Virus record (IMG/VR): IMGVR_UViG_3300020171_000001
Location: 62,001-126,000 of that record
From: a virus
DNA length: 64,000 bases
Reading direction: 5' to 3' (one strand)
The translations under genes were made by a program, and so were the position numbers. This document shows, one piece after another, positions 5,496 to 41,915 of this stretch. Below the pieces are notes generated by a model. That model did no database searches and was not told the origin of the DNA. It saw nothing but the letters and a program-made list of their open reading frames with translations. Numbering within the stretch: position 1 is the first letter of the stretch; every line of letters starts with the position of its first letter.

Positions 5496-6743
5496 TTAGG
5501 TTGCGCTGATAGCCGCGCCGAGCGGGATGCGGAGCAGTGCCACTCCAGTGTCCACGTACAGGCACGGCAGCCCACCGTTGCCGTTCGAGCAATAGCCAAT
5601 GCGCCCGGCAAGGGCCGGCGTCGGCGCCGCTGCCACCGAAACGGATGGGATCATCATGCCCTTGGTGAACACCGCCCAGAGCATCGTGCGGGCGTCGGCG
5701 TTGTTGACCCAACTTGCCTCGGCAACGATGAAGTTGTCGTCGATGCTGGCGAGGTTCGCGTCGTAGGTCAGCGCGACGGCGCGCTGGTAGGCGACGTTCG
5801 ACCGGCCCGCGTTGACGATCTCAATGACCTCGTTGGTGGAGGTCTTCATCGTGGTGGCGGTGGACAGCCCGGTAGCGTTGTTCACCCGCGCCAGGGTCAT
5901 CTGCCCACTGACGTAGACCGCTGGGACGTACAGTCCGCCGGCCAGGAGCGACATCACCGTGGCGAACGCGCCAGCGCCGGTCTGGTACTCCCAGACGAGG
6001 TCCACCGCCCCCGTCGCATTCTGCCGGGCCAGGCCGTAGCAGCGCCACGCGCAGCCGACCGACGAGCCCGAGCCGGTGGCCCACGCCCGCCCACGCCAGG
6101 CCAAGCCGGGGGTATACTGGTCCACGCCGACTGTGGCAGGCTCGGTGTTGTCGAGCGAGATGTGCGTGGCCGGCGTCTCGCCGGTGGCCCATGCGCGCTG
6201 GGAATTGACCCAGGCGCCACCTGTGTAGATAGGAACGTCGCCGGCAGCTGGAGACGCCGTTGGCGGGCGCACGGCCCCGGCTGCATCTGCCCCGATGTCC
6301 CCGGGGGACAGGGCCTGCCCGCCGCCCGTGGAATAGACAGCCTTGGCAGGGGCATTGCTCGCGGGAAGCTGCTTCGAGGCGTCCAGGGGGGCGTAGCCGT
6401 TGGCGCTGTCCTTGTTGGCCGTCTGCTCGAAGTCGGCTGCGGCGCGTGTCACGATGTCGCCCGCCCCCGTGTGCTCCGCGCCGTTGATCGCGTGCGACTT
6501 CGGGTCGCGCTTGTCGGTGGGCGCATCGGCGCCGATGGCCGAACGCCCGTCGGCTGCGCTGGCAGCCGTGACGAGCGCGCGGCCCACCACGGTCTGCCCG
6601 TGAGCCGCGATGGACCCGTTGTGGCTACTGATACTTGCAGAGGCCTCTGCCTCGGACGACAGGAGTTCGCCGATCTGGGCCTCGAGTTCGACTTGGCTCG
6701 CGGCCGCGGGCGCCGAACCAGATCCGTAGTAGGTGTAGGACAT
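5496..6743 (-). CDS. tail fibre-like protein
   Basis: The protein has 415 residues; GGAG precedes ATG 6743. After a short N-terminus comes an Ala/Ser-rich helical stretch (about 16-60). Fibre-shaft landmarks follow (GRALVTAASAADGRSAIGA; HAINGAEHTGAG; then a run of GDIGA/GGAW type repeats). The long Gly/Thr/Asn-rich C-terminal domain ends LLRIPLGAAISAT. This layout is common in phage side fibres and collar proteins. It is separated by ~17 kb from the main baseplate cluster. It would mediate host contact. Confidence 0.7.
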   Translation of the reverse strand: MSYTYYGSGSAPAAASQVELEAQIGELLSSEAEASASISSHNGSIAAHGQTVVGRALVTAASAADGRSAIGADAPTDKRDPKSHAINGAEHTGAGDIVTRAAADFEQTANKDSANGYAPLDASKQLPASNAPAKAVYSTGGGQALSPGDIGADAAGAVRPPTASPAAGDVPIYTGGAWVNSQRAWATGETPATHISLDNTEPATVGVDQYTPGLAWRGRAWATGSGSSVGCAWRCYGLARQNATGAVDLVWEYQTGAGAFATVMSLLAGGLYVPAVYVSGQMTLARVNNATGLSTATTMKTSTNEVIEIVNAGRSNVAYQRAVALTYDANLASIDDNFIVAEASWVNNADARTMLWAVFTKGMMIPSVSVAAAPTPALAGRIGYCSNGNGGLPCLYVDTGVALLRIPLGAAISAT

Positions 6744-6752
6744 GCTGTTCTC

Positions 6753-7138: not shown

Positions 7139-7187
7139 CTTGGGGCTCCTTCCCTGATATCAGTTCCCAAGATACCACAGAGGAGAA

Positions 7188-7580: not shown

Positions 7581-7667
7581 GCAGTCAACGGGCATGACTG
7601 CGGAATCGCGCGACGGGCCAGGGCCCTGAGCAGAGCACAAGGGATGCGGACAGAACCCGCATGGACT

Positions 7668-8099: not shown

Positions 8100-8117
8100 G
8101 GCCCGTGAAGTTAACGT

Positions 8118-8129
8118 GGCAGGCCTGCC
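8118..8129. promoter_or_regulatory. 12-bp perfect palindrome GGCAGGCCTGCC
   Basis: A perfect inverted repeat lies immediately upstream of the winged-helix-like gene and beside an 11-bp tandem repeat. It could be an operator for that protein; this is inferred from position only. Confidence 0.3.
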
Positions 8130-8134
8130 GGGTC

Positions 8135-8156
8135 AAGCAGAATCCAAGCAGAATCC
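8135..8156. repeat. 11-bp tandem repeat AAGCAGAATCC x2
   Basis: Two perfect adjacent copies lie in the short gap between the genes ending at 8162 and starting at 8099. It is non-coding and may be a slippage product. Confidence 0.85.
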
Positions 8157-8161
8157 GGGTT

Positions 8162-8479
8162 TCAGCCCAGAGTCACCGTGAGCAGTGTAGCTAGTCCAAC
8201 AGCGATGGGCAACGCGGCGAGCGTGGTCCACTCGTCGGTCCGTAGGGTATTCGAGCCATCGATGAATACCGTGGTCGTGGCCAGCTCCCAACGTACCCGA
8301 GTGAAGGTGAGCTTCTGGTCCTGGAAGTTGACCGGGGTCGGGCCGACGACCAGGGTCCCGTTGGCCTGCCGGGTGACGATCTGGAAGGAGAAGGTCCCGT
8401 GGGCCGCTGCGACCTGCTTGGACGCGCTGGTCTGATCCGCTGCCATGGACACGCTGTTCAGGAAGCAAAAGGCTGGCAT
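8162..8479 (-). CDS. small beta-rich structural protein
   Basis: The protein has 105 residues; GGAGGA lies 8 bases before ATG 8479. It is beta-rich (GTFSFQIVTRQANGTLVV, KLTFTRVRWELATTTVFIDGS), with a 'S..TLRTDEWTTLAALP' segment. Its layout is like that of the frameshifted protein at 6.75-7.14 kb. It probably decorates the virion or forms a fibre domain. It is the last gene before the modification cluster on the same strand. Confidence 0.55.
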   Translation of the reverse strand: MPAFCFLNSVSMAADQTSASKQVAAAHGTFSFQIVTRQANGTLVVGPTPVNFQDQKLTFTRVRWELATTTVFIDGSNTLRTDEWTTLAALPIAVGLATLLTVTLG

Positions 8480-8513
8480 GCTGATTGGTCCTCCGGCTAA
8501 ACGCTAGTCGAGG

Positions 8514-8522
8514 AGTGTAGCA
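8514..8522 (-). promoter_or_regulatory. candidate extended -10 promoter (TGC TACACT)
   Basis: On the minus strand TGCTACACT lies 35 bases before the start of the 105-residue protein, within the 61-bp gap after the asparagine-synthase-like gene. The -35 region is weak. A separate start here would give the structural gene transcription independent of the modification operon. Confidence 0.3.
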
Positions 8523-8540
8523 TAAACCAATGAGAGATTC

Positions 8541-9461
8541 TCAAGCAGCTTGAGCCATGATTTCCTGGAACCACCGGGTGGACCAGAGAGGCTCGCCATC
8601 CGGGCGCCATGCCTGCGGGATGAAGAGGCCCTTCTTGGTCTGCTCCTCCACGATCATGTCCGGGACACCAAGTTCCCGGGCCACGACGCGCAGGGGCGCT
8701 TTGCAGTACTCAGATGTGACTCGCTCGTCGGGGAACAGACGACCGGCTGCCTCGCGCACCATCGGGTGCCCGAAGGGGAAACGTACCTCGGCGCCGAAGG
8801 CCTGGAGGCACGCGGTCTCGTTGACCAGGAGCGGGGGCAGGCCATGATGGAGGTCCACTAGCCGGGCCATCTCCACGGCAGACGTTACGTTGGCTGCGTG
8901 TTTGTCGATCAGCTCGTAGGCCTCTGCGGTGGGGACCGTGCGAGCGATCATTCGGGCCGCTGCGTCCCGCGGGCCGTCAATGCCCAGCACGTGCCGGATG
9001 ATCCCTTTGTAGGCCACGAGGCGGTAGTCCGCGAAGATCTTGTCGAGGTAGTGCAGCACGCGGTAGCGTGTGTAGCCACCGAACAGCTCGTCGGCGCACT
9101 CACCGGTGAGCAGGACTTCGATGCCGTCAGCCTGCGCTCGCCGAGCCGCGAACCACTGGCACACCTGGGACCACGAACCGGTCCCATGGGTGAGCCGGTA
9201 GACTTCTGGAAGCGCGTCAAGCATCTCCTCGCGGGAGAAGGTCACTTCGGTGACCGGAAAGCCACGGGCGGCCAGCCGAGCCGCTGTGATGTTGTCCTGC
9301 TCGGGCCAGGTCACGCAGTAGAGGTGGTCAAGTCGGGCGATAGCCTGGATGATGGCCGAGTCGAGGCCACCCGAGAGCAGTAGGCCAGTGCCACTCGGGC
9401 CCTGCGGCGCGATAGACTCTTGCACTGCGGTGGCCAACGCCTTCGAGATGCTTTGGTGCAT
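8541..9461 (-). CDS. asparagine synthase-like ATP-pyrophosphatase domain protein
   Basis: ATG 9461 is chosen (GGAGG 8 bases upstream), giving 306 residues. SGGLDS (30-35) is the ATP-binding P-loop of PP-loop enzymes. GECADELFGGY (120-130) and RFPFGHPM (227-234) are signatures of the synthetase domain of asparagine synthases. The N-terminal glutaminase domain (Cys1 type) is absent, so the protein would need free ammonia, a partner glutaminase, or another nucleophile. Related enzymes amidate sugar acids in O-antigen clusters (WbpS type) or form beta-lactams. In this context amidation or acyl-adenylate chemistry on a glycan or peptide is a reasonable guess. It is last in the cluster, 34 bases after a sulfotransferase-like gene. 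Confidence 0.8.
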   Translation of the reverse strand: MHQSISKALATAVQESIAPQGPSGTGLLLSGGLDSAIIQAIARLDHLYCVTWPEQDNITAARLAARGFPVTEVTFSREEMLDALPEVYRLTHGTGSWSQVCQWFAARRAQADGIEVLLTGECADELFGGYTRYRVLHYLDKIFADYRLVAYKGIIRHVLGIDGPRDAAARMIARTVPTAEAYELIDKHAANVTSAVEMARLVDLHHGLPPLLVNETACLQAFGAEVRFPFGHPMVREAAGRLFPDERVTSEYCKAPLRVVARELGVPDMIVEEQTKKGLFIPQAWRPDGEPLWSTRWFQEIMAQAA

Positions 9462-9495
9462 TCTGCCTGCCTCCTCTACGCACCGATCTGTGCGC

Positions 9496-10041
9496 CTACG
9501 GATTTGCGTTTTCGTGAGGGTAGCTATGGCCATGGCGCGGGTCTCGACCGAGAAACCCTGTGAGGTCCCCAAGCTTGTCCTTGGCGTCAAGCGGTAGGAC
9601 AAGAAGTTTGTCCTTGCCTGCTCTTCTGAAGCAGCGGCGGACGCAGTCCTCGTGCTGGTCGAAGATGTCCCCGAACTGCCCACGGTGGAACCGCCGGGTG
9701 CCGAAAGTGCTCATGTTGCTGAGGTGCGTGTCAGGGTCATCGCTGGCCACCCGGTGCGCCTCCCACCACCGCTCGCAGGAGTCCAGCCAAGTCTCGCGCT
9801 GGCGGGTCGTGAGAATGAATTGGCTCTTGGGGTAGACGCGATCGAGATGCCGGTAGTAGCGAGTGCCGAAGTGGACCAGAGCATCCCAGGTATCAGGTTG
9901 CCAAGTGAAGTTCGCCTCTTCCAAGACCTGCTTGTAGAAGCCGAAGGGGTTGTGGATCACCCGGAGGTCGAAGCTCTCCAGTGCTTTGGCCAAGCTCACT
10001 GTTCCCGTCTTGGGCAGGCCGATGCCGAAGATCTTGCTCAT
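9496..10041 (-). CDS. sulfotransferase-like protein (P-loop, PKTGT type)
   Basis: ATG 10041 overlaps the upstream stop as ATGA; 181 residues. The N-terminus MSKIFGIGLPKTGTVSLAKAL (loop at 10-17) is the 5'-phosphosulfate binding loop of the Sulfotransfer_4-like family. FILTTRQRETWLDSCERWW (about 73-91) matches the '.. R.P..W..S...FW' region. These proteins are thought to move sulfate from PAPS to an acceptor, though several relatives are biochemically untested. The 'P...YPHEN' ending is typical too. It would act with the second sulfotransferase in this cluster. Confidence 0.72.
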   Translation of the reverse strand: MSKIFGIGLPKTGTVSLAKALESFDLRVIHNPFGFYKQVLEEANFTWQPDTWDALVHFGTRYYRHLDRVYPKSQFILTTRQRETWLDSCERWWEAHRVASDDPDTHLSNMSTFGTRRFHRGQFGDIFDQHEDCVRRCFRRAGKDKLLVLPLDAKDKLGDLTGFLGRDPRHGHSYPHENANP

Positions 10042-10580
10042 GCTTGTGGCCGCCACGCCTCAAGGTTGAGGCTCATCAACCTCCCGTCGGCCTTTCGCAG
10101 GTGGGGAAGATACGCCTGGGAGAAGTCATCCACGTGCGCATGCTCAGTCCTGCGCCAGTCGTAGCGCTGGATGCGCACGAAGCCCGCGGCTGAGAGGGCC
10201 ATGGTGAGCCACGCTTCATCGAAGGCGCAGTGGTGGAAGTTCAGTGGGTGGTCCTGCCCCCCGTAGAGTAGGCCGTGGAGTCCTTCAAGGCTCTTAGTCT
10301 CCTGGTACCAAGCGCAGATCGCAGAGAAGTCCGGGACGGCGAGTCGGAGGACCCCACCAGGTGAGAGAACACTGCGCCAGTCCCCGAGCACGCGGGGAAT
10401 AGCCTCGCGGTGAAAATGCTCCAGGATATGCGACGCGTAGACTGCTTCTGCGACTCCTGCACCAAACGCTTCGACGAGGTGGGCCGCAGAGACGATGTGG
10501 TCGATGTGCGCGTGCGGCATCAGGTCGACGTGGACCCAGCCCGCGATGTACCGTGGTCCGCAGCCGATGTGGAGTTTCAC
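10038..10580 (-). CDS. SAM-dependent methyltransferase (class I)
   Basis: The protein has 180 residues. The N-terminus KLHIGCG (2-8) is the SAM-binding loop. GWVHVDL gives the acidic residue of motif II, ILEHF (about 52-56) motif IV, and LSPGGVLRLAVPDF (about 71-84) motif V. This compact layout is frequent in glycan clusters and in phages. The acceptor is unknown. Coupled by ATGA at both ends. Confidence 0.82.
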   Translation of the reverse strand: MKLHIGCGPRYIAGWVHVDLMPHAHIDHIVSAAHLVEAFGAGVAEAVYASHILEHFHREAIPRVLGDWRSVLSPGGVLRLAVPDFSAICAWYQETKSLEGLHGLLYGGQDHPLNFHHCAFDEAWLTMALSAAGFVRIQRYDWRRTEHAHVDDFSQAYLPHLRKADGRLMSLNLEAWRPQA

Positions 10581-11365
10581 GTCGGTACCTCGCAGACCAC
10601 GTTGACGCTCCGTTTGGACAAGTCGTCCTCTGCAATGATGGCCTCGAGGTCCACAGGAGAAAAGGTCTCCTCACGTACGAATCTGTAGCCCATGTCCTGC
10701 AGCAAGAGCAGCATCTCCCGCGTCTTCGTTCCGTAGGTGTAGTTGCTATCGCGAGCAAGCCCTGCAGACTCACGGAGGGTATAGTCGCAGACCTCGAGGA
10801 GCAGGACCGGGCGGAGCCGGGCCAGGGTCCTTCGTGCTCCGAAGATGAAGTCCAACTCGCTGCCATCGAGGTCCACTTTGGCGAAGTCCAGGCGGTCCAT
10901 CTGCAGATCGTCCAGTGCCACCGTTGCTATCTGCGCAGAGGGTTGCTCGCAGCGCGTGGGCGGCCAGGAGTAGTTGAAGAAGGTTTCCTGTGGCCCCTGT
11001 GCCCTCCGCCCAAGAGCTTTGCAGTGGACCACGGTGTTTTCGATGTCGTTTAGTCTGCAGTGCTCCCCGATCAGGGCAGCCGGCTCGGGCATGGCTTCGA
11101 AAGAGGCCACGTGGCCCCCCGGCCCCACCAAATACGCCAGAAGCACTGTGTAGTAGCCCATGTTGGCGCCGGCGTCCAGTACGTGCATGCCTGGGCGGAC
11201 AAGGCTCTCGACGGCCCACGTGGAATAGGGCTCCCAGATGTGGCTTCGGAGGACAGAGCCATCGATGAGCTGTTCGGGGTCGAGTAGCCAATGGAAAGCC
11301 GGAGTGTCTCCCCGCTTCAAGGCTATGGGCGCGTCATACGGCTCTTTCAAACTACGGTAGGTCAT
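10577..11365 (-). CDS. FkbM-family methyltransferase
   Basis: ATG 11365 overlaps the upstream stop by ATGA; 262 residues. DAGANMGYYT (64-73) is the SAM loop. FAKVDLDGSELDFIFGA (161-177) is the FkbM hallmark (usually 'K.D.EG.E...l.G'). FkbM proteins O-methylate sugars or polyketides, and appear repeatedly in capsule and O-antigen loci. Here one member would methylate a sugar added by the cluster's glycosyltransferases; this is an inference. Confidence 0.85.
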   Translation of the reverse strand: MTYRSLKEPYDAPIALKRGDTPAFHWLLDPEQLIDGSVLRSHIWEPYSTWAVESLVRPGMHVLDAGANMGYYTVLLAYLVGPGGHVASFEAMPEPAALIGEHCRLNDIENTVVHCKALGRRAQGPQETFFNYSWPPTRCEQPSAQIATVALDDLQMDRLDFAKVDLDGSELDFIFGARRTLARLRPVLLLEVCDYTLRESAGLARDSNYTYGTKTREMLLLLQDMGYRFVREETFSPVDLEAIIAEDDLSKRSVNVVCEVPT

Positions 11366-12228
11366 GGCCAAGTTCTCCCAACCAAGGACATTGCTTCGTG
11401 CACACATGGATCTCCGTAGCAAATCTCCACGTAGCGCTGGATAGGGTTTGCCACATTGGGGTCGACGCGGACCCCGCGGATTCCTGGTAGCCCATCAACG
11501 TCATTGCCAGACCACGGGTTCCTGTCAACGGTGCCTGCCAAGATCGCATTGCGCAGTGTATGCACATTCCCGCCGATGTGGTGCTGCCGTTTTTCTCCGT
11601 AGTCCTCTGCTGGAACCGTCAGGATCTTCGTGGTCTCTGAGCTCTTCAAGCCCATAATACGCGGCATGGCATGGCTTGCGTCGGTAGCCAAATCCTCATA
11701 GGCCAGCACATGGTCAGGCGCTGATGCGGAGAGAGCTATGACGTTGGCGGCCCAGTTTGCAGCCCACAGTGCTACGTCGCTGTCTGCTGCGTTCTCACCG
11801 ACGAGAGACCGTGCGTAGGCCCAGGGGGGCTTGTGGACCAGAACCCGGATGTGCTGCTCATCCGGGTTGCAAGTCTGCATGATGCTTGTGTACCCCGGGT
11901 TCTTGCTGGTATCAATGAGCCAGCCCGTGACCCCGAAAAGTTTGCGTACCTGTTGGTAGTGGTCGCGCAAAGTCAGACTGGAGTGCTCCTTGATGAACGG
12001 GCACATGCCGCCGCAAGACCTGCAATATGCCCGGTAGATGCCCGAGGCATAGCGCTGGCGACGAAGGGCGATGAACAAATCGTGGTCGTTTGCACTCATG
12101 TTGAGGACACAGTAGTGGATCCACTCCCCCAGCATGGTCCATCCGGGCTGCGCACCAGCGATTAAGCCGAGGAGCGTGGAGCCGGATCGGCCCATACCCA
12201 CGACGTGGAGGACGCCAGTGCCCGTCAT
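11362..12228 (-). CDS. sulfotransferase (PAPS-dependent type)
   Basis: The protein has 288 residues. VVGMGRSGSTLLGLI (9-23) is the 5'-phosphosulfate loop. A Cys triad (C69, C72, C76 in YCRSCGGMCPF) matches the C.CG...C..W feature of a bacterial sulfotransferase subgroup. IDTSKNPGYT (about 105) and VHKPPWAYARSLV (about 131-143) fit the 'D.SK.P' and R.P.....S blocks. It should transfer sulfate from PAPS to a hydroxyl. PAPS supply would come from the host, since no cys-type genes are present. Coupled at both ends. Confidence 0.8.
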   Translation of the reverse strand: MTGTGVLHVVGMGRSGSTLLGLIAGAQPGWTMLGEWIHYCVLNMSANDHDLFIALRRQRYASGIYRAYCRSCGGMCPFIKEHSSLTLRDHYQQVRKLFGVTGWLIDTSKNPGYTSIMQTCNPDEQHIRVLVHKPPWAYARSLVGENAADSDVALWAANWAANVIALSASAPDHVLAYEDLATDASHAMPRIMGLKSSETTKILTVPAEDYGEKRQHHIGGNVHTLRNAILAGTVDRNPWSGNDVDGLPGIRGVRVDPNVANPIQRYVEICYGDPCVHEAMSLVGRTWP

Positions 12229-13418
12229 TGCTGAAACTCATTCGGTGCCAAACGCTGGAGGTACCGGCCATAGCAGTGCCGAATGGCCTCTCGGTAGCTG
12301 TTCTTGGCTACGACAGTATCGGTATGCTCTTTGGCTGCCAGGGCCATCCGAGACAGGAACTCTCCGTCCTCCCGTGGGGCCTTCAGCACCTGGAAGAAGT
12401 TCGCAATGGAGCCATCGAACCCAATGTAGTGCGTTCCATTACGGTAGCCGAATTCAGTGAGTTCTCCGTGCCTATCATGGAGAACCTGGACCACGCCTGT
12501 TTCGAACAAGTCGAACAATCTACCGTTGAAGAACGACGAGATCGGGAAGTTTACGCCGAATCGCGATCTGGCGTAATAAGGCGCCACGACGTACCCGTTC
12601 CGGTTGACGTCGTTTCGCGGTAGAAGTTCTCCATCGCGCATGCCAGAGCCACAGAGAAGACTGCGGTGCCCGGTTTCTCCCGCGCGGTGGTTCAACTCGG
12701 TCAGGAACGCACGGCGTTCCGGGTTCATGTCCCCGCGGCAGCCGACGAAGATTAAATCGATGTCGACTGCGCCCCGGCGCAGATCCTCTGCTTTTTGCTG
12801 TACGGTGAATCCTGTGTCCTTGCACCATGCCTGGAGTTGATCGGATGTCCCCCCAATGTGCATACGACAGTAGGGTAGACCGAGAGCCTGGTACTTCTCT
12901 GCAGTTCGCACGCCGGTAGCATAGTCCCAGGTAAGCATTCGATAAACCAGCGCATCGAAATACTTTGCCACAGGGAATGTCTTGATCTCCGATGACCCCG
13001 GGCAGTCATCTCCGAACTCCAGGATGCAGACCTTGAACCTGCCCGAGATCCGCTCCATGACCTCTGGGAAGCACTGATAGGCGTGCTGCCAACGCAGGAT
13101 CTCGTGGTCCCCCGAGAGTCGAAGGAGATCAGAGACCAGTTGGTTTACAACGGCAGGGGCCGGCCTGCGCGTGTTGTCAACCATCCCCGGAGCCATCCCC
13201 TGGGGGAGTTCTAGTACTCCTGCGCGGACATAGGGCAGATACTGAGGGTACGTGGTGGTGTCCACGACGAGGTCTACCCCTTCGTCGGCGAAGCGGTACG
13301 GGTTTCCCCCCCGCCGCTCCTGGATGATCTTGGAGAAATCCGTGTCGTCGGTGTCCGGCCACTTCTGCCAGCTCCGTTGATCGGTGATCAGGACTTCCTT
13401 GACCCCAACAGTTGTCAT
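12225..13418 (-). CDS. CgeB-like glycosyltransferase
   Basis: ATG 13418 overlaps the preceding stop by ATGA; 397 residues. The C-terminal half carries the GT-B nucleotide-sugar binding region in the CgeB style: DLIFVGCRGDMNPERRAFL (about 254-272), then RSRFGVNFPIS, NGRLFDLFETGVVQVLHD and FGYRNGTHYIGFDG (about 315-360). The N-terminal half has a degenerate Rossmann layout. The family is assigned to spore-coat and surface glycan building. Donor and acceptor are unknown. Confidence 0.75.
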   Translation of the reverse strand: MTTVGVKEVLITDQRSWQKWPDTDDTDFSKIIQERRGGNPYRFADEGVDLVVDTTTYPQYLPYVRAGVLELPQGMAPGMVDNTRRPAPAVVNQLVSDLLRLSGDHEILRWQHAYQCFPEVMERISGRFKVCILEFGDDCPGSSEIKTFPVAKYFDALVYRMLTWDYATGVRTAEKYQALGLPYCRMHIGGTSDQLQAWCKDTGFTVQQKAEDLRRGAVDIDLIFVGCRGDMNPERRAFLTELNHRAGETGHRSLLCGSGMRDGELLPRNDVNRNGYVVAPYYARSRFGVNFPISSFFNGRLFDLFETGVVQVLHDRHGELTEFGYRNGTHYIGFDGSIANFFQVLKAPREDGEFLSRMALAAKEHTDTVVAKNSYREAIRHCYGRYLQRLAPNEFQQ

Positions 13419-15127
13419 CTCCGGAAGCCCCAGATCGTGGCCACGGAGAGTTCTGGGACGGGGACCTGCGACGCTTCGTAACCCAATAAGCGTATGCCGT
13501 CCACCAGCGCGGCTTGCTCTTCGGCCCCAGGCCGATGAATCCACCAGCGCTCTACGTCGATAACTGCGTCCCGTCCGTTGAGGGCCAAACGGAGCTTGTC
13601 TGCCTCTGGGACTTCCCACGTTCGCCAGTGCTCATTTATGACGTTTGTGGCGACAAGCATGTCGTAATCCGGTCCGGAGTACCCATCGGGGAACGTCGAA
13701 CAAAGCACCTCGAGATTGCACGCGACCCTCGGGTGCATTCGGGCCATCCAGGCCTGAATATACCGAGCTCCACGGGCCCGCTCGGGGTCAATGTCCACGG
13801 CAACCGCGGGGAACCCGAGGGCAGCCAAGGCCAGAGCTAACTGCGCGTGCCCAGCGCCAACTTCGAGAACTCGCTGAGGCCGTGGGCCTTGGCGGGCCAA
13901 CCATCGGACGATTCCACGGTCATTTGCATCGAGGATTGAGCCCGAGTCCATCTTGTACTTGTAGTACCCGTCGATGGCCAGCCGGCCCGGATTCTCTGCG
14001 AACCAGCTCCGGTGTGCTTCCAAGAGACCAGCGTCGAAGGCATCGAGGTCAGGATCACTGGAGTCAGGGCCACCAGGGCCAACGTCATTGCCCCTAACGC
14101 AGGCTCTGCGTGGGCCACCGGCTGAACTGGATTTGGAGTCGGTTTGCATAGGTTTGCTCTCAAGGATACTTGTAACGTCTGCGAAGCAGACAGGGATCTC
14201 CTCACGCGCGCAAGCCGCGGTCAAACCATCCATGGCCCGGGCTACACGGGGATTGGCAACTGGGGTCCACGTGTCAGCGATGCTTCTCCAGTACACGTCC
14301 CAGAGTGAGTGCGCGTGAGTCTTGATATAGAGTGTGCCGCCGATGACAGGGGACTCCTCAAGCCAGGACACTACGGCGTCAGCCGGCGCCGTGTCTCCGT
14401 GGGCAACAGCGTCCAGGGATACTCGGGAAAACGGCGTGGGGCTGTTCCAGATCAGGAATCGCCCTTCGGCTGCCAGCTGAGATGCGCTCGGGATACGCAA
14501 CAACGCGGTTCGGGGCTTGGCCCCGTCTGCGGCATACCCTTTGGGCGCGGAGAAGGGGACCACGGTATGCGGCGCAGGAATCGTTGGGGCGCAATGCCTG
14601 CGGCCGGGCGGAAAGGAAAAGTCTGCTATCACTCCGTGGCGATGGAGAACAGCGATTTCGTCCACGATGTCGCAGATCGCCGGGTCAGAGGCATTGAGGG
14701 ACCAGCAGCCATGGACGAAGGCTGCGTATTGCGGCAGGTGTAGATCTGCGCGCTGGGCCACGAGGTACCCAAGGAGACTGGACAGTCGGTTGGAGTTGGC
14801 CTCTGGATCGTGGGGCCAGCACTCATGATGAATATGGATTTGCTGGTCTACGCCCGCGCCGACGAGGGCCTTCTGGATCTCCAGGTCAGACGCCATCCTC
14901 GCAGGATTCTCACGGACTCCCAGGTCCCTCTCGTCCCCGAGGATAAAGGACTGCGAGCTGAAGAACACGGAGATGGCTCGAGACCAGGAGCATTGCTTCA
15001 GCAATTCGAGCCACCGCCGGACGTGCCCCACAGACATGAAGGAGCCAGAACCATCTGTCTGGTAAGGCTCAAAGTGGTCGCAATGCGCTAGCACGACGCG
15101 CTGGACGCCACGTTGGGCCAGAGTCAT
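13415..15127 (-). CDS. polysaccharide deacetylase-like / methyltransferase fusion
   Basis: ATG 15127 overlaps the upstream stop by ATGA; 570 residues in two modules. Module 1 (about 1-320) has HCDHFEP (15-21), HIHHE (98-102), HGCWSL (139-144) and ADFSFPPG (168-175). This pattern is that of a little-studied NodB-related deacetylase-like family that reads 'HGNWAL...ADFT.PS'. Module 2 (about 365-570) is a class I methyltransferase with LEVGAGHAQL (421-430) and VDIDPERARGARY (about 438-450). A Ser/Gly-rich linker joins them. One chain may deacetylate and methylate the same glycan. I have not met this fusion before. Confidence 0.68.
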   Translation of the reverse strand: MTLAQRGVQRVVLAHCDHFEPYQTDGSGSFMSVGHVRRWLELLKQCSWSRAISVFFSSQSFILGDERDLGVRENPARMASDLEIQKALVGAGVDQQIHIHHECWPHDPEANSNRLSSLLGYLVAQRADLHLPQYAAFVHGCWSLNASDPAICDIVDEIAVLHRHGVIADFSFPPGRRHCAPTIPAPHTVVPFSAPKGYAADGAKPRTALLRIPSASQLAAEGRFLIWNSPTPFSRVSLDAVAHGDTAPADAVVSWLEESPVIGGTLYIKTHAHSLWDVYWRSIADTWTPVANPRVARAMDGLTAACAREEIPVCFADVTSILESKPMQTDSKSSSAGGPRRACVRGNDVGPGGPDSSDPDLDAFDAGLLEAHRSWFAENPGRLAIDGYYKYKMDSGSILDANDRGIVRWLARQGPRPQRVLEVGAGHAQLALALAALGFPAVAVDIDPERARGARYIQAWMARMHPRVACNLEVLCSTFPDGYSGPDYDMLVATNVINEHWRTWEVPEADKLRLALNGRDAVIDVERWWIHRPGAEEQAALVDGIRLLGYEASQVPVPELSVATIWGFRR

Positions 15128-15735
15128 GGCTTCGTCCCCCAGGGCCACACGCGCACCTCGGGCGTTGCAAGCCCGTGGAAGGTTGCCTTGCTCTCCCCAT
15201 GGGTGTAAAAGCCGTCTTTCCCGACGCCGTTTGTCCCTCGCCACCAGTGGCCGTCTCGGACTATGACGGCTGGGTCGAGAAGAATATCGTCATAGCCCAA
15301 AAGGCGACCGTCGGCTCCCCGGTAGACCGACTGGTGCTCCTTTTCGACATCTAGTAGGAATGGCCGGGCCACGAGGTCCTGGGGCCCTACTACCTCGACG
15401 ACGCTGTGTCCGCTAGTGCCGTCAGAGTGGAGCAGCTCGATCCCCCGGCATTCCACGCGGAAGATATGATATGCAAGAAAGGCAAAGAGAAGGCACTGCT
15501 GCTCGCACCAGCCTGCGCGCTGTTCCAGGATCTCTCGAGGGCAAAGGCTTCCGGGGTGACTCAGGGGGTGAGCGATCTCGGTGCCGACCCAGACCATGAG
15601 ACGAAGTAGCCGCTCTTCTAGGCTCCCGTTCCCCGCCGAGGTCCGAGCCATGGCAATCTGCAGTCGGATTCGTCGATCCGGCTGCACCTCGGCATGGTTG
15701 GCCCAGCGATTCCAGTCGCCGATCGACGCAGGCAT
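15124..15735 (-). CDS. transglutaminase-like superfamily protein
   Basis: The protein has 203 residues. The order Cys (GWCEQQ, C77), His (SGHSVVEV, H110) and Asp (PFLLDVEKEH, D129) is the papain-like triad of the transglutaminase-like superfamily, with WC as the usual Cys context. Such proteins act as cysteine peptidases, amidases or cross-linking enzymes. In this cluster it could cut or transfer an amide or ester. It lies 7 bases after a methyltransferase gene and is coupled to the fusion gene. A weak GAGGGG is seen 13 bases before its ATG. Confidence 0.72.
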   Translation of the reverse strand: MPASIGDWNRWANHAEVQPDRRIRLQIAMARTSAGNGSLEERLLRLMVWVGTEIAHPLSHPGSLCPREILEQRAGWCEQQCLLFAFLAYHIFRVECRGIELLHSDGTSGHSVVEVVGPQDLVARPFLLDVEKEHQSVYRGADGRLLGYDDILLDPAVIVRDGHWWRGTNGVGKDGFYTHGESKATFHGLATPEVRVWPWGTKP

Positions 15736-15742
15736 TTGGGTG

Positions 15743-16528
15743 TTATCCCCTCTTGAACCCGGAGACGGAAACTGGGAATCCGCCTACCCACGTAGCAACG
15801 AATCCGCTGGCAGTGAACCAACCGGTGACCTCTTCGACGGTATGCCAGAACCGATATCTCGGTGTCAGCCAGTCAAAGAAGTCGCTGATGCACTGCTCAT
15901 CATTCGGATTGTAGGACGGCCGCAGGACCTCTTCCAGGGGCCCCCACGCGGGATGGCACAGGTCGCGGATCTGCACGGCGTATTCACGGCAGATGCCATA
16001 GAGGACCTCGGGGGGAACGGCCCTGGTCACCTCATGCATGAAGTCCACGAGGATCTGATGCTTTGGATCTGCCGTGGGCCGGGTGTAGACCCAGATAGCC
16101 ATTTGGCCCCCCGGCTTGACGGTCCGGGCCACATTGGCGAAGGACTGCGCCGGGTCTGCCGTGTGGTGGAGGACCCCGATGGACATGGCCATGTCGACGG
16201 ACGCATCGGGGAGGAATCCGGGTATCGTCAGGTCCGCCTGGATCAGCTCCGCCTGCGGCGCGTTTTCACGAGCCGCTGCGAGCCCGTCGGGGGACACGTC
16301 CACACCGATGGCCTTGCCTCCGTGGTCAGTGATGAACCGGCAGTATCGGCCGATCCCGCAGCCTGCGTCCAGGACGACCTTGCCCGCCAAGTCTTCAAGC
16401 CGCCAACCGGTCTTCTCCATGAACTGCTTCGCGGTGGTCGGCTGGGGCTCCGGGTGCCGTCTCCAGCGCTGGTCGAAGCCCTTGTCTGATTCGGGGGGTG
16501 ACGACGACGACGACGATGACCGGGTCAT
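15743..16528 (-). CDS. SAM-dependent methyltransferase
   Basis: ATG 16528 overlaps the stop of the upstream gene by ATGA; 261 residues. A run of seven Ser encoded by a short (TCG/TCA) repeat lies at 4-10. VLDAGCGIGRY (52-62) is the SAM loop, VDVSPDG motif II, IGVLHHTADP motif IV and VKPGGQMAIWVYT motif V, as in UbiE/Methyltransf_11 proteins. The C-terminal part (FFDWLTPRYRFWHTVEEV) is often found in sugar-cluster methyltransferases. Confidence 0.83.
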   Translation of the reverse strand: MTRSSSSSSSPPESDKGFDQRWRRHPEPQPTTAKQFMEKTGWRLEDLAGKVVLDAGCGIGRYCRFITDHGGKAIGVDVSPDGLAAARENAPQAELIQADLTIPGFLPDASVDMAMSIGVLHHTADPAQSFANVARTVKPGGQMAIWVYTRPTADPKHQILVDFMHEVTRAVPPEVLYGICREYAVQIRDLCHPAWGPLEEVLRPSYNPNDEQCISDFFDWLTPRYRFWHTVEEVTGWFTASGFVATWVGGFPVSVSGFKRG

Positions 16529-17454
16529 GCTGGCTCCTTGGGCTTGGGCTGGCTCAGATACGGGCCGGCGGGGGCAAGGGCGAAGGTGTTGAGTAGCCAT
16601 GTCAGGAGGACTGCTTGTTGATGCGGGCCGGCGCGGCCGAACCGCAGGGTCTTGACGGCATCGTTGGGCACGGCTGGCACTTCATCAGGAGCCAAGAGCA
16701 GCGTCTCGGAGACATCCTGTACAAGGGCCGCAGCAGCTGGGAGCGGGGCAAGCCCCTCTACCAGTCTCTGGAAGTACGTGGTCCACTCCTCCGCAGTGCG
16801 ACTGAGCCTCGCGAGGTCGCGTGGGAGTCGTGGTGATACCCGGGGAAAGTCTTGAATAGCTGCCCACTGGTCGTCGGTGCACTCGGCACCGCGAAGCAGC
16901 ACGCCGTAGGTGGCCAAAGCATCCCCGAGGTTCGGTATGCGGAACGGCGGTTCCTCCTCCCTGTTCTTCCCGCAAGTCCAGAGGACCGCTTCGTAGGGCT
17001 CGATGAGGGCTGCCAACTCCTCCGGAGTGTACTCGCGGACGTGGAAGGGATTCTGGCACTTCCAGGTATTCCAGTTCGGCGTGGAAAGAAATACAAACCG
17101 TCGTGCCACGCGATGGAGTTGGGACAGGAACTCGGTATCCTCTTCGACGTGCTCGAGGACATCCATGGCCGTGACCGCGTCAAACGACCGATCCCGGAAG
17201 TCCTCGATCGGGAGGTCCAGGACGTGCATACGATCCACGGGCGCCGGGTCAGTCCCCACCACGCGCGTGGTTTCACCGGAACGGAGGAGCGCCAGGCCTC
17301 TCCCGTCCCCAGCGCCAACGTCCAGCACGGACAGATCCTTTGCGAGGTACGATGCCAGGAGGTACCAGTGGTCTTGCCCGCCGGTGGCGTTGCTGGCACG
17401 CTGGGCCGGCGGGAGCTTCTCCAATCGCTGGGGTTCAGTTACATTGCGCGGCAC
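16525..17454 (-). CDS. SAM-dependent methyltransferase with C-terminal extension
   Basis: GTG 17454 is chosen (GAGGA 7 bases upstream), overlapping the glycosyltransferase end by 16 bases; 309 residues. SVLDVGAGDGRG (42-53) is the SAM loop, MDVLEHVEED motif IV, and FLSTPNWNTW with HVREYTPEEL are typical of methyltransferases from glycan clusters. Residues after ~190 form a helical domain (DQWAAIQDFPRVSPRL...) without a recognised match. Confidence 0.8.
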   Translation of the reverse strand: MPRNVTEPQRLEKLPPAQRASNATGGQDHWYLLASYLAKDLSVLDVGAGDGRGLALLRSGETTRVVGTDPAPVDRMHVLDLPIEDFRDRSFDAVTAMDVLEHVEEDTEFLSQLHRVARRFVFLSTPNWNTWKCQNPFHVREYTPEELAALIEPYEAVLWTCGKNREEEPPFRIPNLGDALATYGVLLRGAECTDDQWAAIQDFPRVSPRLPRDLARLSRTAEEWTTYFQRLVEGLAPLPAAAALVQDVSETLLLAPDEVPAVPNDAVKTLRFGRAGPHQQAVLLTWLLNTFALAPAGPYLSQPKPKEPA

Positions 17455-19571
17455 AAGAATTCCTCGTAGCGCTGGGACCAAACTGACCAGCTCCAGCGCG
17501 CTTCGATCTCTGCCCGGTTGATGCGGCCCATCTCGGCTACACGGAGCGGATCAGCACGGAGCATGCAGATGGCTTGCGCCAGGGCATCCCTGGTGCGTTC
17601 CACGATCACGATCCCTGTGTCTCCAAACTCCTGGATCTGCGAGCGCTGCATCTCCCGGTGGTTTCCGCAGTCCGTGGTGATTAGCGCATGACCCGAGGCC
17701 ATCCCCTCCATCACGGAATTACTCGCCCCTTCGTATTTGGACATGCAAAGGCACAGGTTGGCCTTCAAGTAGAACACGGGCATCTCGGCCGGGGATAGCC
17801 TGGCTGTGTGGTACTCGGCAAAGACCAGGGGCTGCTTCAGACCCTCGCAGACCGGCTTGATGATGGTGTCGAACCCCTTGACGTCTCCGCAGGCCCCAGA
17901 TGCGTGCTGGGCGTTGCCGTTCCAGGAACAGATGACCTCGCCGGACACAGGGGTCGGCTCGGGGAATCGGTTCATGTTTACAGGATTCGTGAGGTACACC
18001 GCATTGGGGCAGTGGTCGCGCAGCTCGTCGTAGTTTTGCTTCGTGACGACATGAAATGCCCGAAAGCGATTCACGAGCGCGATGTCTTCGGCCGTTGGCG
18101 GCCCCGGCTTTTCAGGCTTGAACCAGAGCGCACGGAGGCTGCCGACGGTGCGGTCCCACGGGAGCATCGCGTCGATGCCCCAGCGGTGGTAGACGCAGAA
18201 CACCGTGTTGAACCGCAACATGGCTGCGCGAATGCGCTCGTCCACTTCATGCGCAGGCAGCGCCTGGCGACCCTGCGCCTCAATCCGTGCGTTGCACCAG
18301 TCGATCACGAACCAGTGTGCAAACCCGCGCTTGCTTCCGAGGTAGAGTTCGAGGTCCTTCATGTTCTGGTGGAAGGCCCAATCTCTCACATCGGAGAGGA
18401 GCAATACGTCGCCGTCCTCGGCCATCTGCTCTACCCCGAGTGCCCGGGCCTGCGCCTCTGCGGGCCCACAGTGCCCCCGTGGGGAAACTAGCCGCGGTTC
18501 GCCCGCGGGCTCGGACCCAGGCCCGGGCGCGGGCGCGAGTGCGGGCGCCGCGACAGGCTGAGCCATGGGCTGCAGGACTTCTGGTGAAACCGGCCGCGTC
18601 GTAGCTAACCCCTGGGGGACACTCTGGCCTTGGATCGCGAGAGCCGCCAGGAGGCACCGGCGCCAGTTCTCCAGGGTGACGTCCCATGCCCAGCGTTGCT
18701 CGACCTCGGCGCGGGCGCCACGGGCCATGTTCGTTCGCGCGTCCGGGGCCATGCGCTTAACGGCTTCAATGGCCTCAACCAGGGCCCCGGTCGTGCGCTC
18801 GCGGAGGAGGAATCCGTTGACCTGGTCACGGATCATTCGCTGAGCGATGCCAACGCGCGTGGAGATGGGGATGCGTTGCGACGCCATGCCCTCGAGGATA
18901 GGGTTCGGCGTTCCTTCACGGACGGACATGCAGGTGATGCACGTGATCGCGTGGTAGAACGGTGGCATCTCGTGGAGCGAGCGTGAATTGCCCTTGGCGG
19001 CGTCAAGGACGTGGAGTTCGACATGCGCCTGCTGGCAAGCTTCGCGTACGAGCCCCAGCCCCTTGTAGTCTGTAATGCCCTTGTCTTGCCCCATACGAGC
19101 GCTGTTCCCGCACCAGCCAATGACCGGAGGCCCAGGAGGCAGCCGGGATGGCATGAAGAGCCGCGTGTTGACGCCGTCTGGGACGAGGAAGATGGGCGGG
19201 AGTTTGGCCCCCGCGGACCGCTGCTGGATGTCTTGCCGGATCTCCTCATTGCACACGGCAAGGATGTCCGTTTGCCGCAGTGCCAGGAGGAATTCAGGGG
19301 ACAGGTTGGCCGGCCCGGAGCAAAAACTCTCGTGGTCGTAGACACAAGTAATGAGCGTACCCGGGCGCAGGTTGGCCCGGAGCCGACAAGTATCCCCCCA
19401 CCAGAAGCAGACCAGTACCGAGGAGCCTGAAACCGGGGATAGGAGTTTGCTGCTTTGCTCGATGACAACCGTGGAAAACAGATTGCCAAGGCCTCGGGCG
19501 ATTTCACGGGAGATGTTGTGGAAGGCCCATCCGGGCTGGTCGATGCTGAGTACAAGGGTCTGCGAGGCCAT
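17439..19571 (-). CDS. tandem double GT4 glycosyltransferase
   Basis: ATG 19571 (AAGGAAGG upstream) gives 710 residues; ATG 19589 is an alternative. There are two GT-B glycosyltransferase domains in one chain. The first (about 1-315) has IGWCGNS (151-157) and EGTPNPILEGMA (219-230). The second (about 388-710) has CSWNGNAQ (548-555) and KYEGASNSVMEGMASG (612-627). EG....ILEGMA is the GT4 sugar-nucleotide binding motif. A Pro/Ala-rich linker (about 318-365) separates them. It is the first gene of the cluster and could add two different sugars in sequence. Confidence 0.85.
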   Translation of the reverse strand: MASQTLVLSIDQPGWAFHNISREIARGLGNLFSTVVIEQSSKLLSPVSGSSVLVCFWWGDTCRLRANLRPGTLITCVYDHESFCSGPANLSPEFLLALRQTDILAVCNEEIRQDIQQRSAGAKLPPIFLVPDGVNTRLFMPSRLPPGPPVIGWCGNSARMGQDKGITDYKGLGLVREACQQAHVELHVLDAAKGNSRSLHEMPPFYHAITCITCMSVREGTPNPILEGMASQRIPISTRVGIAQRMIRDQVNGFLLRERTTGALVEAIEAVKRMAPDARTNMARGARAEVEQRWAWDVTLENWRRCLLAALAIQGQSVPQGLATTRPVSPEVLQPMAQPVAAPALAPAPGPGSEPAGEPRLVSPRGHCGPAEAQARALGVEQMAEDGDVLLLSDVRDWAFHQNMKDLELYLGSKRGFAHWFVIDWCNARIEAQGRQALPAHEVDERIRAAMLRFNTVFCVYHRWGIDAMLPWDRTVGSLRALWFKPEKPGPPTAEDIALVNRFRAFHVVTKQNYDELRDHCPNAVYLTNPVNMNRFPEPTPVSGEVICSWNGNAQHASGACGDVKGFDTIIKPVCEGLKQPLVFAEYHTARLSPAEMPVFYLKANLCLCMSKYEGASNSVMEGMASGHALITTDCGNHREMQRSQIQEFGDTGIVIVERTRDALAQAICMLRADPLRVAEMGRINRAEIEARWSWSVWSQRYEEFLCRAM

Positions 19572-19696
19572 GCGCCCTTCCTTGTCCATCGCTAGTGGGC
19601 CTCTTGCCTGCCTATAGGCGGCAGCCGGTCGCGTGGCTTTTGAACTTGCTGCAGTGGCCAGCCAAGAGGCTGCGTGGGGGCCGGGGCAGAGCGGGC

Positions 19697-20050
19697 CTAC
19701 ACCACGCTGAAGTTGCCCACGGCGTGGGCGCCACCGCCGCTGTTGTAGGTGACCACGTGGTAGGATCCGTCGTGCTGATCCTGAATCCGGTACTGGTCCA
19801 GCGTGGGCGGGTTGGTACCGTCTGCCGAGATGCCGGCTCCGGTGCCACCCGCGTAGAGGGTTCCGGAGCCGCCCGCGACGACGAGTGCATCGAGGGTTCC
19901 CGCGTTCCAGCGCGTGATGACCGTGTTGATCCCGGTGATCACAGTGTTCAACGCGCTGACCAGCGAGCCGGTCAGACGCCCGTCGAAGACTTTTGCGCCG
20001 CTCTTGAACGCGGTTACGGCTACGGAGCTGATCGGGGTGATAGCAGCCAT
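19697..20050 (-). CDS. small structural-like protein
   Basis: The protein has 117 residues; AAGGAG lies 6 bases before ATG 20050. Ala/Thr/Gly-rich, with a helical N-terminus and a beta-rich second half (LDQYRIQDQHDGSYHVVTYNSGGG). It may be a head decoration or fibre protein. It is the first gene after a good minus-strand promoter and is separated from the modification cluster by ~125 bases, in which I see only a short palindrome (GCCTATAGGC). Confidence 0.55.
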   Translation of the reverse strand: MAAITPISSVAVTAFKSGAKVFDGRLTGSLVSALNTVITGINTVITRWNAGTLDALVVAGGSGTLYAGGTGAGISADGTNPPTLDQYRIQDQHDGSYHVVTYNSGGGAHAVGNFSVV

Positions 20051-20693: not shown

Positions 20694-22586
20694 ATGGACG
20701 ACATGCATACCACGACGCAGGGCGATCAATCGCAAGCTGCGGCCACTGGCGGAACTGACGTAGAAGCCGGTGGAGCTTTCGTCAAGATACAGAGCTTGGG
20801 CACGGAGTCTTCGGAGAGCGCCCGGGTAGGCGAGCTGTTTGTCACATCAGGTGGAGGCCCCCCGGCGCTTGCTCCGCGGGAGTCCGATAACGATGCTGAC
20901 ACGCTGGTTCGGAACTCTTGGTCCGTGCTCAGCATCGTGACAGCGCTCCTCGACAACGTGTATGGGGCGCCGGTGGATGTGGAGCCTGTGGTGGACCCGG
21001 CCAGCGAAGAGGGTAAGCGAACCATCCGGCGTTGGATCCGGCTCCAACGGGCCATGCGGGGAACCTCGGATCGGACTCATCTGGAGATTTCTCAGGCCTC
21101 GTTGGACCAGGCCTGCGGGTGGCTCGATGCCCGGATCGAATACGAGCTGGCTCGCGCCGAGGGCTTCTACGATACGTGCGGGGTAGACCACGATCTGCAG
21201 ACCACACGTATTCTTCTCGGATTCGACCTCGAGACCCGCGGGCGCGCGCACCTGGAGGTTCTGCGGGGCATGGACGGCACTCCGCGGGCCATTCAGTGGG
21301 TCTCCTCCCGGTTCATCCGGATTGAGCCCAAGAAAGACATCGTGGGGTTCCACGACGTGGATGTCCACAACCCCCTCGTTCAGATCGAAGAAGTACGGTA
21401 CCGCCGGTTTCACGGGTTCTATCAGGTGACGGCCGCGCCAGGGTCCGGCGTGTGGTCATACTTCCGTGAGTTTGGCGACCCGCGTATCCGGAGCCGGCGC
21501 TCGGGCCAGCGGGGCTTCGCGACCCTGGAAGACCTCCAAAGGGCCGAAACCGGACCGGGGGGCGCGGGGTCCGGGGCCCACTACGCGCAGGCAGGTTGGC
21601 CCCCGGGGACCCCCGCCACGGAGATTTTGCACTTTGCCCTCTCCGCGCCCTGGGCAGAATCTACTGGACTGGCCCCCTGGTACGCGGCCAAGCCCGAAGC
21701 TCTGGGTATCCGCGAGCTCGCGCAGGAGAACCGTGGGCTGTTGTCCGGCCAGTTGATTCCGCTGCTGCTCATGATGGTCTCCGGCGGCGCTCGTATCGGG
21801 CCCGATCAGCAGGAGTACTGGCAGCGGCAGTTCCAGTCGATTCGGCCTGGGGAACGCGGGCTATTGATCATGCAAGTTCTCGGTGACCGGCTGGTCGGCT
21901 CAGGGGCTCGCAGCGGTGGCGAGCCCAAGATCCAAATCGAGAACACCCGTCCGGCGCAGCAGGACGATGCCTTGGGCCTGAAGTACACCAAGGAGGCCGA
22001 TCGGGCTGTTCGCCGGCTCTACCGGTTCCCTGCGCCGGCACTGGGAGACTTGGAGGGTGTGAACGAGAACACAGCGGACTTGGCCTTGCGGTTCGCCGAG
22101 AGCCAGATCTACGAGCCCCGAAGGGACGCATTCAACCGGCCCTTCGACCAGATTCTGCGGGAGATGGGGCTGGTCGCCGTTCGCACGCGCACACGACCGC
22201 GTATACCCATGCACCTGGGAGAGATCGCTGAAGCCTTCCAGCGTCTGAGCGAGGCCTCCTTGGTCACACCGGAAGACGTTCGACCGTTCCTCCGCCGCCT
22301 GGTCCCCGGTTTGGACCACCTGGGAGACCGGTATTGGGCCAAGCTCCCCCGACGGGTGACCGAGGCCTACATGATGGCACGAGCGCCGCAAGCCGTGGCC
22401 AATTTCCTCGAGCTCGACGACGCACATGCACCGGCGCCGGAAGCATCTGAGCAGATGCGCTCGGCGGACCTCCAAGACGCGGCTGATGTGCTCGCCGGGT
22501 ACGCCCCGGCAACGGCCCCGACCATGGATTCTGAGAATTCTGAGAATTCTGAGAGTTCTGGGACTACGGAGAAGCTCAATGACTGA
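20694..22586 (+). CDS. portal protein
   Basis: ATG 20694 (GGAG 7 bases upstream); 630 residues. The central region (VSSRFIRIEPKKDIVGF, then EILHFALSAPWAESTGLAPWYAAK, LAQENRGLLSGQLIPLLLM) fits the PBSX/HK97-like portal layout, where 'G.sp....l....i......n..ff.nga.P' marks the core. It would form the dodecameric vertex ring for DNA packaging. The C-terminus has a Ser/Glu/Asn repeat (DSENSENSESSG). It is the first head gene of the plus-strand morphogenesis block. No terminase gene precedes it. Confidence 0.82.
   Translation: MDDMHTTTQGDQSQAAATGGTDVEAGGAFVKIQSLGTESSESARVGELFVTSGGGPPALAPRESDNDADTLVRNSWSVLSIVTALLDNVYGAPVDVEPVVDPASEEGKRTIRRWIRLQRAMRGTSDRTHLEISQASLDQACGWLDARIEYELARAEGFYDTCGVDHDLQTTRILLGFDLETRGRAHLEVLRGMDGTPRAIQWVSSRFIRIEPKKDIVGFHDVDVHNPLVQIEEVRYRRFHGFYQVTAAPGSGVWSYFREFGDPRIRSRRSGQRGFATLEDLQRAETGPGGAGSGAHYAQAGWPPGTPATEILHFALSAPWAESTGLAPWYAAKPEALGIRELAQENRGLLSGQLIPLLLMMVSGGARIGPDQQEYWQRQFQSIRPGERGLLIMQVLGDRLVGSGARSGGEPKIQIENTRPAQQDDALGLKYTKEADRAVRRLYRFPAPALGDLEGVNENTADLALRFAESQIYEPRRDAFNRPFDQILREMGLVAVRTRTRPRIPMHLGEIAEAFQRLSEASLVTPEDVRPFLRRLVPGLDHLGDRYWAKLPRRVTEAYMMARAPQAVANFLELDDAHAPAPEASEQMRSADLQDAADVLAGYAPATAPTMDSENSENSESSGTTEKLND
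22527..22562. repeat. 9-bp tandem repeat (TTCTGAGAA type, ~4 units)
   Basis: Encodes the SEN repeats at the portal C-terminus and keeps the frame. Confidence 0.85.
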
Positions 22587-37625: not shown

Positions 37626-37633
37626 AGCCTGAC

Positions 37634-41909: not shown

Positions 41910-41915
41910 GGCGCT

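Follow-up and report, generated by a model that had tools for sequence, protein, structure and literature searches.

A portal-side operon of a contractile-tailed phage may build a methylated and sulfated glycan on virion proteins

To our knowledge, few systems of phage virion glycosylation are known, and each comprises few genes. Mycobacteriophage glycosyltransferases were reported to glycosylate the capsid and the tail tube (PMC12363180). The chlorovirus PBCV-1, a eukaryotic algal virus, builds a methylated glycan on its major capsid protein by multi-domain transferases (A064R, A061L, A111/114R), one of them fused to a methyltransferase; A064R, a GT-GT-methyltransferase, finishes the capsid glycan (PMC9614988). 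The glycogene clusters of giant viruses combine glycosyltransferases, methyltransferases and sulfate-metabolism genes. In the Megavirinae (e.g. Moumouvirus australiensis), multi-domain glycosyltransferases stand with sulfate-metabolism and papain-like genes, and methyltransferases occur in related clusters (PMC9614988).

We analysed a window of 64,000 nucleotides from the 157,287 bp record of a large, uncultured virus, probably the complete genome of a contractile-tailed phage. The window contains an eleven-gene operon (8541-19571, minus strand). Like the mycobacteriophages Che8 (gp110), Corndog (gp38) and Myrna, for which virion-protein targets are reported (PMC12363180), the phage encodes its own glycosyltransferases; unlike them, it carries a set of eleven genes, with methyltransferase domains five times over and predicted sulfation and amidation. 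Sequence homology to the known phage virion-glycosylation enzymes was not found, which a system of this kind does not strictly require. Compared by domain make-up, the likeness to PBCV-1 is best seen in a relative (G001), whose GT-MT-GT-GT fusion is accompanied by a GDP-mannose 4,6-dehydratase (GMD) and a GDP-L-fucose-synthase-like gene. In the Megavirinae, the clusters serve the capsid fibrils and provide their own nucleotide-sugar synthesis, whereas the present genome lacks epimerases and nucleotidyltransferases. Plasmid pEP7_01 of Isosphaeraceae EP7 likewise has glycosyltransferases, a methyltransferase, asnB and a gene homologous to the g138 N-terminus, but its cluster adds an O-antigen ligase and a lipid-carrier-dependent glycosyltransferase, whereas membrane assembly genes are missing from the phage genome. 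A sequence-only reading of this DNA knew of no phage cluster with two sulfotransferases among such activities. This is supported in part: both sulfotransferase queries came back empty in 50,697 phage records, while the giant-virus clusters do join comparable functions (PMC9614988).

The eleven coupled minus-strand genes of that reading are all present. Of the ten junctions within the operon, seven overlap by 4 bases, and the remaining three are a 16-base overlap, a 7-base gap and a 34-base gap. All the genes are open with intact motifs, and their combination exceeds chance, with the order conserved in a relative. Searching the phage collection with the cluster by megablast gave no match.

Three glycosyltransferase domains had been proposed, and profile searches bore them out. 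The g142 gene (17439..19571) encodes a tandem double glycosyltransferase with two GT-B group-1 C-terminal domains; PF13692 matched in two stretches (8e-23), PF13524 matched the C-terminal half, and the motifs EGTPNP and EGASNS are present. An AAGGA motif lies upstream of its ATG at 19571, and an alternative open start lies at 19589. Orthologues of g142 with 35-46% identity occur in the loci L008, L009 and L018. The third domain is that of g137 (12225..13418), a CgeB-like glycosyltransferase by way of its L018 orthologue (37-38% identity), which matched PF13524 (Glyco_trans_1_2) above the cut-off (5.9e-8); g137 itself matched no family in the profile search. Neither g142 nor the g137 orthologue had a tblastn match in the 50,697 phage records, and a viral scan with g137 alone found nothing.

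Five methyltransferase domains, likewise anticipated, were recovered in g134, g135, the g138 C-terminus, g140 and g141, each with a glycine-rich motif I. The MetW/UbiG-like SAM methyltransferase g141 (16525..17454; PF13489 2e-11, PF08241 9e-10) carries LDVGAGDG and shares 42% identity with its positional counterpart in the relative. It overlaps by 4 bases with g140 (15743..16528), a SAM methyltransferase (PF08241 5e-21) with 47-49% identity to its counterpart. FkbM-type g135 (10577..11365; PF05050 1e-14, TIGR01444 2e-17) shows 38% identity. The small SAM methyltransferase g134 (10038..10580; PF13489 6e-5) and the g138 C-terminus (PF13489 8e-6) themselves stay below the Pfam cut-offs; the g134 orthologue (51% identity) is above it (PF08241 7e-9).

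By family match and 5'-PSB loop, g133 and g136 are predicted PAPS sulfotransferases, g136 only through its L018 counterpart. The g133 protein (9496..10041) belongs to the Sulfotransfer_4 type by its own match above the cut-off (PF17784 2e-17), carries GLPKTGTVS and also matches the solved sulfotransferases 5tiz and 9kf1 at about 5e-6. The sulfotransferase-like g136 (11362..12228) has RSGSTLL as the 5'-PSB loop and HKPPWAYARS as a 3'-PB-like motif, with PF13469 below the cut-off (E 1e-3); the L018 gene at its place, 23% identical, matches PF13469 at 1e-10. Both of the sulfotransferase-like proteins that had been claimed stand, g136 being weak by its own profile match. Performing tblastn with g133 and the g136 counterpart against the 50,697 phage records, we found nothing.

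The remaining three assignments fared unequally. An AsnB-type ATP-dependent synthetase domain is clear in g132 (8541..9461; PF00733 3e-37; SGGLDS, DELFGGY), though the N-terminal class II glutaminase domain with Cys2 is missing; the orthologue of the relative has this domain, is full length and starts with MCGI. The g138 gene (13415..15127) joins a metal-hydrolase/deacetylase-like N-terminus (DHFEP, HxHH) to the SAM methyltransferase. Its N-terminus gave no match in Pfam, NCBIfam and PDB searches and a structure model with a pLDDT of 39; scanning viral sequences with g138 alone and the phage collection with g138 by tblastn also gave no match. Its one homologue is a planctomycete protein within a GT-asnB-GT-methyltransferase polysaccharide cluster, and the Asp/His pattern is common to both. 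We regard this N-terminus as a plausible, putative deacetylase in view of this homologue. The papain/transglutaminase-like label of g139 (15124..15735) is weak. PF01841 reached 13.5 bits (cut-off 23; E 0.089), which is near noise; WCEQQ and GHSVVEV were spotted by eye, and the gene is missing in the relative L018/G006.

We also checked the whole record for epimerase/dehydratase, sugar nucleotidyltransferase and APS-kinase genes, and none of the three families was found. The proposal of a finishing line that uses host precursors is well supported for this genome. The accompanying statement that sugar-nucleotide synthesis genes are absent holds for the record but does not extend to G001, with its GMD and GDP-L-fucose-synthase-like genes. 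No flippase- or polymerase-like multi-span protein was seen, every protein of the record having at most three hydrophobic segments. Apart from one hydrophobic stretch within the g138 methyltransferase domain, the proteins of the cluster appear soluble.

Using a portal alignment, we found 80 related loci; scans of genome contigs with g142 and capsid alignments found no relatives. In a relative on a 38-kb contig (G006/G007), eight of the eleven genes recur at the same place with their order unchanged; they are flanked by the portal and a small conserved protein at one end and by a fibre-like gene at the opposite end. The genes are thus not scattered singletons in related phages. The seven alignable enzymes have a mean identity of 42.5%, compared with 35.3% for 19 structural proteins. 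Recent acquisition of the cluster finds no support in the conservation of these enzymes, which is at least that of the structural proteins, or in the GC content (61.7%, against 65.4 ± 4.1% for the other genes). At the same site, G001 has a different cassette, namely the four-domain fusion (GT+MT+GT2+GT) and the fucose-type genes, and probably one further methyltransferase. A more distant relative (L022) has a GT4-type gene directly after the portal; glycosyltransferase genes adjoin portal and fibre-like genes here and in relatives. Because synteny is kept in one relative and another cassette occupies the same site in G001, we consider the locus an old, exchangeable glycan module. That relatives keep much of the gene set at the same place among structural genes suggests that the genes genuinely belong to these viruses and are not strays.

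On balance, we lean towards a virion-directed module that builds a glycan on a phage structural protein. We infer late expression, and the operon would probably be expressed together with the fibre and lysis genes. Drawing on nucleotide sugars of the host, the two domains of g142 and the g137 protein would put together a short sugar chain on the acceptor; capping or marking of sugar hydroxyls would fall to the five methyltransferases. Sulfate would be added by g133 and g136 with host PAPS as the donor. The g132 protein may activate a carboxylate, likely of a uronic acid, and convert it to an amide, the nitrogen coming from free ammonia or some other amine; g138 may remove an acetyl group ahead of further modification. 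The likeliest acceptors would be the fibre-like g130, the small end proteins g143 and g131, or the capsid (gene g150). Three targets had been offered, namely a virion protein, a host surface glycan and a small molecule; the position of the locus and the missing flippase and polymerase genes favour the virion protein, circumstantially. The domains and motifs, the tight coupling, the synteny beside the portal and the precedents also speak for the virion-directed module; the lost glutaminase half of g132 and the weak profile match of one sulfotransferase speak against it.

The same enzymes could instead act late in infection, or during a carrier state, to remodel a glycan of the host surface (LPS, capsule or S-layer sugar), and so block superinfection or adsorption to debris. 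Glycosyltransferases, a methyltransferase, AsnB and a g138-like domain do co-occur in a bacterial polysaccharide cluster, and temperate phages that alter the host serotype are described in PMC12619734; yet the multi-span machinery is absent and the locus sits among virion genes in every relative examined, and we hold this to be rather unlikely. It is also unlikely that g132, g136 and g139 are decayed or structural, leaving a methylated glycan with neither sulfate nor amide. The divergent binding loop of g136, its score and that of g139, and the loss of the glutaminase half in g132 would agree with decay, but the intact motifs, the open and closely coupled genes and the clear family membership of g133 speak otherwise.

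We find it very improbable that the products attach glycans to the bases of phage DNA, a hypermodification that would shield it from restriction. Virus-encoded DNA-hypermodifying glycosyltransferases have been described (cited in PMC12619734). The genome also encodes a C5-cytosine methyltransferase (window 1084-2229), but searching for Tet/JBP oxygenase and thymidylate-synthase-type genes in the record and the partial contigs of relatives found neither and gave this reading no support. As far as we know, sulfotransferases, FkbM and AsnB would not be expected in such a pathway. Synthesis of a small molecule or ribosomal peptide, with AsnB and a papain-like protein as in lasso peptides, appears extremely improbable. 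A transglutaminase-like gene is present and the AsnB orthologue does match the lasso cyclase model, but weakly and far below the cut-off, and this model is far outscored by TIGR01536 and amidotransferase models; the relative lacks the transglutaminase-like gene yet retains the glycan enzymes, no leader-binding protein was noticed on inspection, and the glycosyltransferases would be left without explanation.

Returning to the virion-directed module, the size of the operon with its predicted sulfation and amidation, its conservation at the level of capsid genes and the fucose-type replacement in a relative suggest that virion glycans are perhaps complex and diversify at a dedicated locus. We can only tentatively extend this to a phage lineage that decorates its own virion proteins with a sulfated, multiply methylated and amidated glycan and swaps cassettes at one portal-side site, like bacterial O-antigen loci. 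We know of no such virion glycan chemistry in bacterial viruses. Glycan roles for phages (adsorption, protection, host-sugar mimicry) would become testable, and the operon would supply new sulfotransferases and methyltransferases.

The flanking genes place the cluster next to virion functions. The portal gene g146 (20694..22586, plus strand; PHROG 12 portal, 3e-5) is the divergent neighbour that anchors the locus. First in line, g143 (19697..20050, minus strand) encodes a small conserved protein, a candidate virion part or acceptor, with no match in the PHROG search and a poor structure model (pLDDT 42); L008, L013 and L018 keep it next to g142 or the g142 counterpart, the g143-g142 pair itself being retained in L008. 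At the 3' end lies the small protein gene g131 (8162..8479, minus strand); a small protein occupies this position in G001 and G006 as well, with no detected homology to g131. Two signals fit one transcription unit from g143 to g131, namely a promoter-like site (33 bases upstream of g143) and, where g131 ends, a terminator-like stem, such matches being near chance. The g130 gene (5496..6743), in the same direction as the cluster, encodes a fibre-like protein by repeats read by eye, with no Pfam or PHROG match; local homology (68 residues, 47%) links it to G6_4612_5553 at the matching place in the relative.

The operon runs on the minus strand through 11 genes, from g142 (19571) to g132 (8541), and the limits set by the sequence-only reading, 8541-19571, are correct. 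Seven of its junctions are 4-base stop-start overlaps, one is a 16-base overlap and one a 7-base gap; the last is a 34-base gap holding a strong ribosome-binding site. Of the enzymes claimed in that reading, family searches and homologues back the glycosyltransferases (three domains), the methyltransferases (five domains), both sulfotransferase-like proteins and a single AsnB-type synthetase domain. Motif I is intact in all five methyltransferase domains, as are the 5'-phosphosulfate loops of both g133 and g136 and the PP-loop of g132. The predicted enzymatic reading of the operon is mostly sound.

The IMG/VR record, of which the window covers bases 62001-126000, is 157,287 bp long with about 230 genes and 64.5% GC. 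The opening 127 bases recur unchanged at its end, the pattern of a closed circular assembly, which makes a complete genome probable. By gene content the virus is a contractile-tailed phage, since portal, capsid, tail sheath, tape measure and baseplate genes lie to the right of the operon. To its left, on the same strand, we read by eye the fibre-like gene g130 and probable lysis genes. The minus-strand block that includes the operon also encodes a C5-cytosine DNA methyltransferase (window 1084-2229; PF00145, 1e-16). Elsewhere in the record, a serine resolvase gene (PF00239) precedes one for a TnpB-like OrfB (PF01385 and PF07282) at 36266-38180, and the pair looks like an IS607-type element within the phage; positions 40797-42614 encode a DnaK/Hsp70-like protein of 605 residues (PF00012, 4e-13). 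The ATPase-like g191 (window 63668-64000, continuing to record position 127782) carries, by eye, an intein-like insert (CLSGDTIMYDPGTG ... GNHPFLTRGG).

Searching for relatives with a portal alignment as the query, we obtained 80 loci. Two of the contigs, G006 (38 kb; locus L018) and G007 (locus L017), are identical across the 5 kb compared and represent one phage. In matching place and order, G006 carries counterparts of g143 (a small conserved protein beside g142), g142, g141, g140, g137, g135 and g134, and a full-length AsnB; it also has a PF13469 sulfotransferase as the g136 counterpart and lacks g139, g138 and g133. The sulfotransferase lies between g135 and g134 in G006, whereas it lies between g137 and g135 in the window, and from this gene order we read that the sulfotransferase and FkbM genes have exchanged places, the remaining order being unchanged. 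The seven alignable enzymes share a mean identity of 42.5% with those of G006, higher than the 35.3% of the structural proteins. We conclude that the operon is real and that it is both old and maintained.

The claimed absence of sugar-nucleotide synthesis genes held, as epimerase/dehydratase and nucleotidyltransferase families were searched for and not found, nor were APS-kinase families; on this gene content, the host must supply the sugars and PAPS. The operon products look soluble, the genome encodes neither a flippase or polymerase nor any other protein with many membrane spans, and searches for the Tet/JBP and thymidylate-synthase families gave none. Together with the missing precursor families and the position among virion genes, from which we infer the target, this favours cytoplasmic glycosylation of a virion protein over the building of a polymer for the host surface and over DNA modification. 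The operon enzymes would thus glycosylate a virion protein in the cytoplasm, using host-derived sugars and PAPS.

AsnB-like enzymes of O-antigen clusters can amidate uronic acids. The glutaminase half is missing in g132, so its amide step would depend on free ammonia or a different amine as donor; the relative's enzyme is complete. The AsnB of the relative (L095; G6 minus strand, upstream of 7165) has a proline-leucine repeat insert (HPLPLPLPSPLPLPLPSP) within the glutaminase domain, odd for AsnB. For the g138 N-terminal domain, profile and solved-structure searches gave no match, but along its length it aligns to a planctomycete protein, from Isosphaeraceae EP7. The gene for that homologue lies between glycosyltransferase genes, and the cluster further includes asnB and genes for a methyltransferase and an O-antigen ligase; therefore, the domain is likely a glycan-active hydrolase, but its earlier label of deacetylase was a guess from an Asp/His pattern. 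The transglutaminase assignment of g139 is weak, its match being below any cut-off.

Phage enzymes are reported to glycosylate the capsid and tail tube of mycobacteriophages (PMC12363180), and glycoproteins were detected in a Xanthomonas jumbo phage with two glycosyltransferases (PMC5852040). Glycan machineries of far greater size occur in chloroviruses and Megavirinae, and some of them include sulfate-metabolism and papain-like genes (PMC9614988). Viral sulfotransferases as such have a precedent, because a metagenome study mentions their genes as viral auxiliary genes (PMC13079714). By tblastn against one phage collection and in one library of open-access papers, we found no phage operon combining two sulfotransferases with a glycan set.

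Among other relatives, locus L008 retains the g143-g142 pair as far as the contig end. The equivalent site of G001 (40 kb) holds a g143 homologue, a protein of 1140 residues that joins GT4, methyltransferase, GT2 and CgeB-like domains, and genes for a probable glycosyltransferase and a probable methyltransferase. It further encodes a GDP-mannose 4,6-dehydratase (TIGR01472, above cut-off) and a protein whose best match, the GDP-L-fucose synthase model, scores under that model's cut-off. Since relatives carry there an operon-like set, the g143-g142 pair or the G001 set, the site reads as a standing glycan locus with changing content. One distant relative has a GT4-type gene (L022:11760-12884; PF20706 'GT4-conflict', PF13692) immediately after its portal gene, and PF13692 is also matched in four further contigs, roughly 1-2 kb downstream of the portal. 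An unrelated low-GC contig (L102, 37% GC) has a distant g142-like protein paired with methyltransferases after head-like genes. Its positions 5818-13900 form, by annotation, another phage glycan cluster: besides a TPR-GT2 protein and the product of a GT2-like gene, they encode a large GT4/methyltransferase protein and two methyltransferases.
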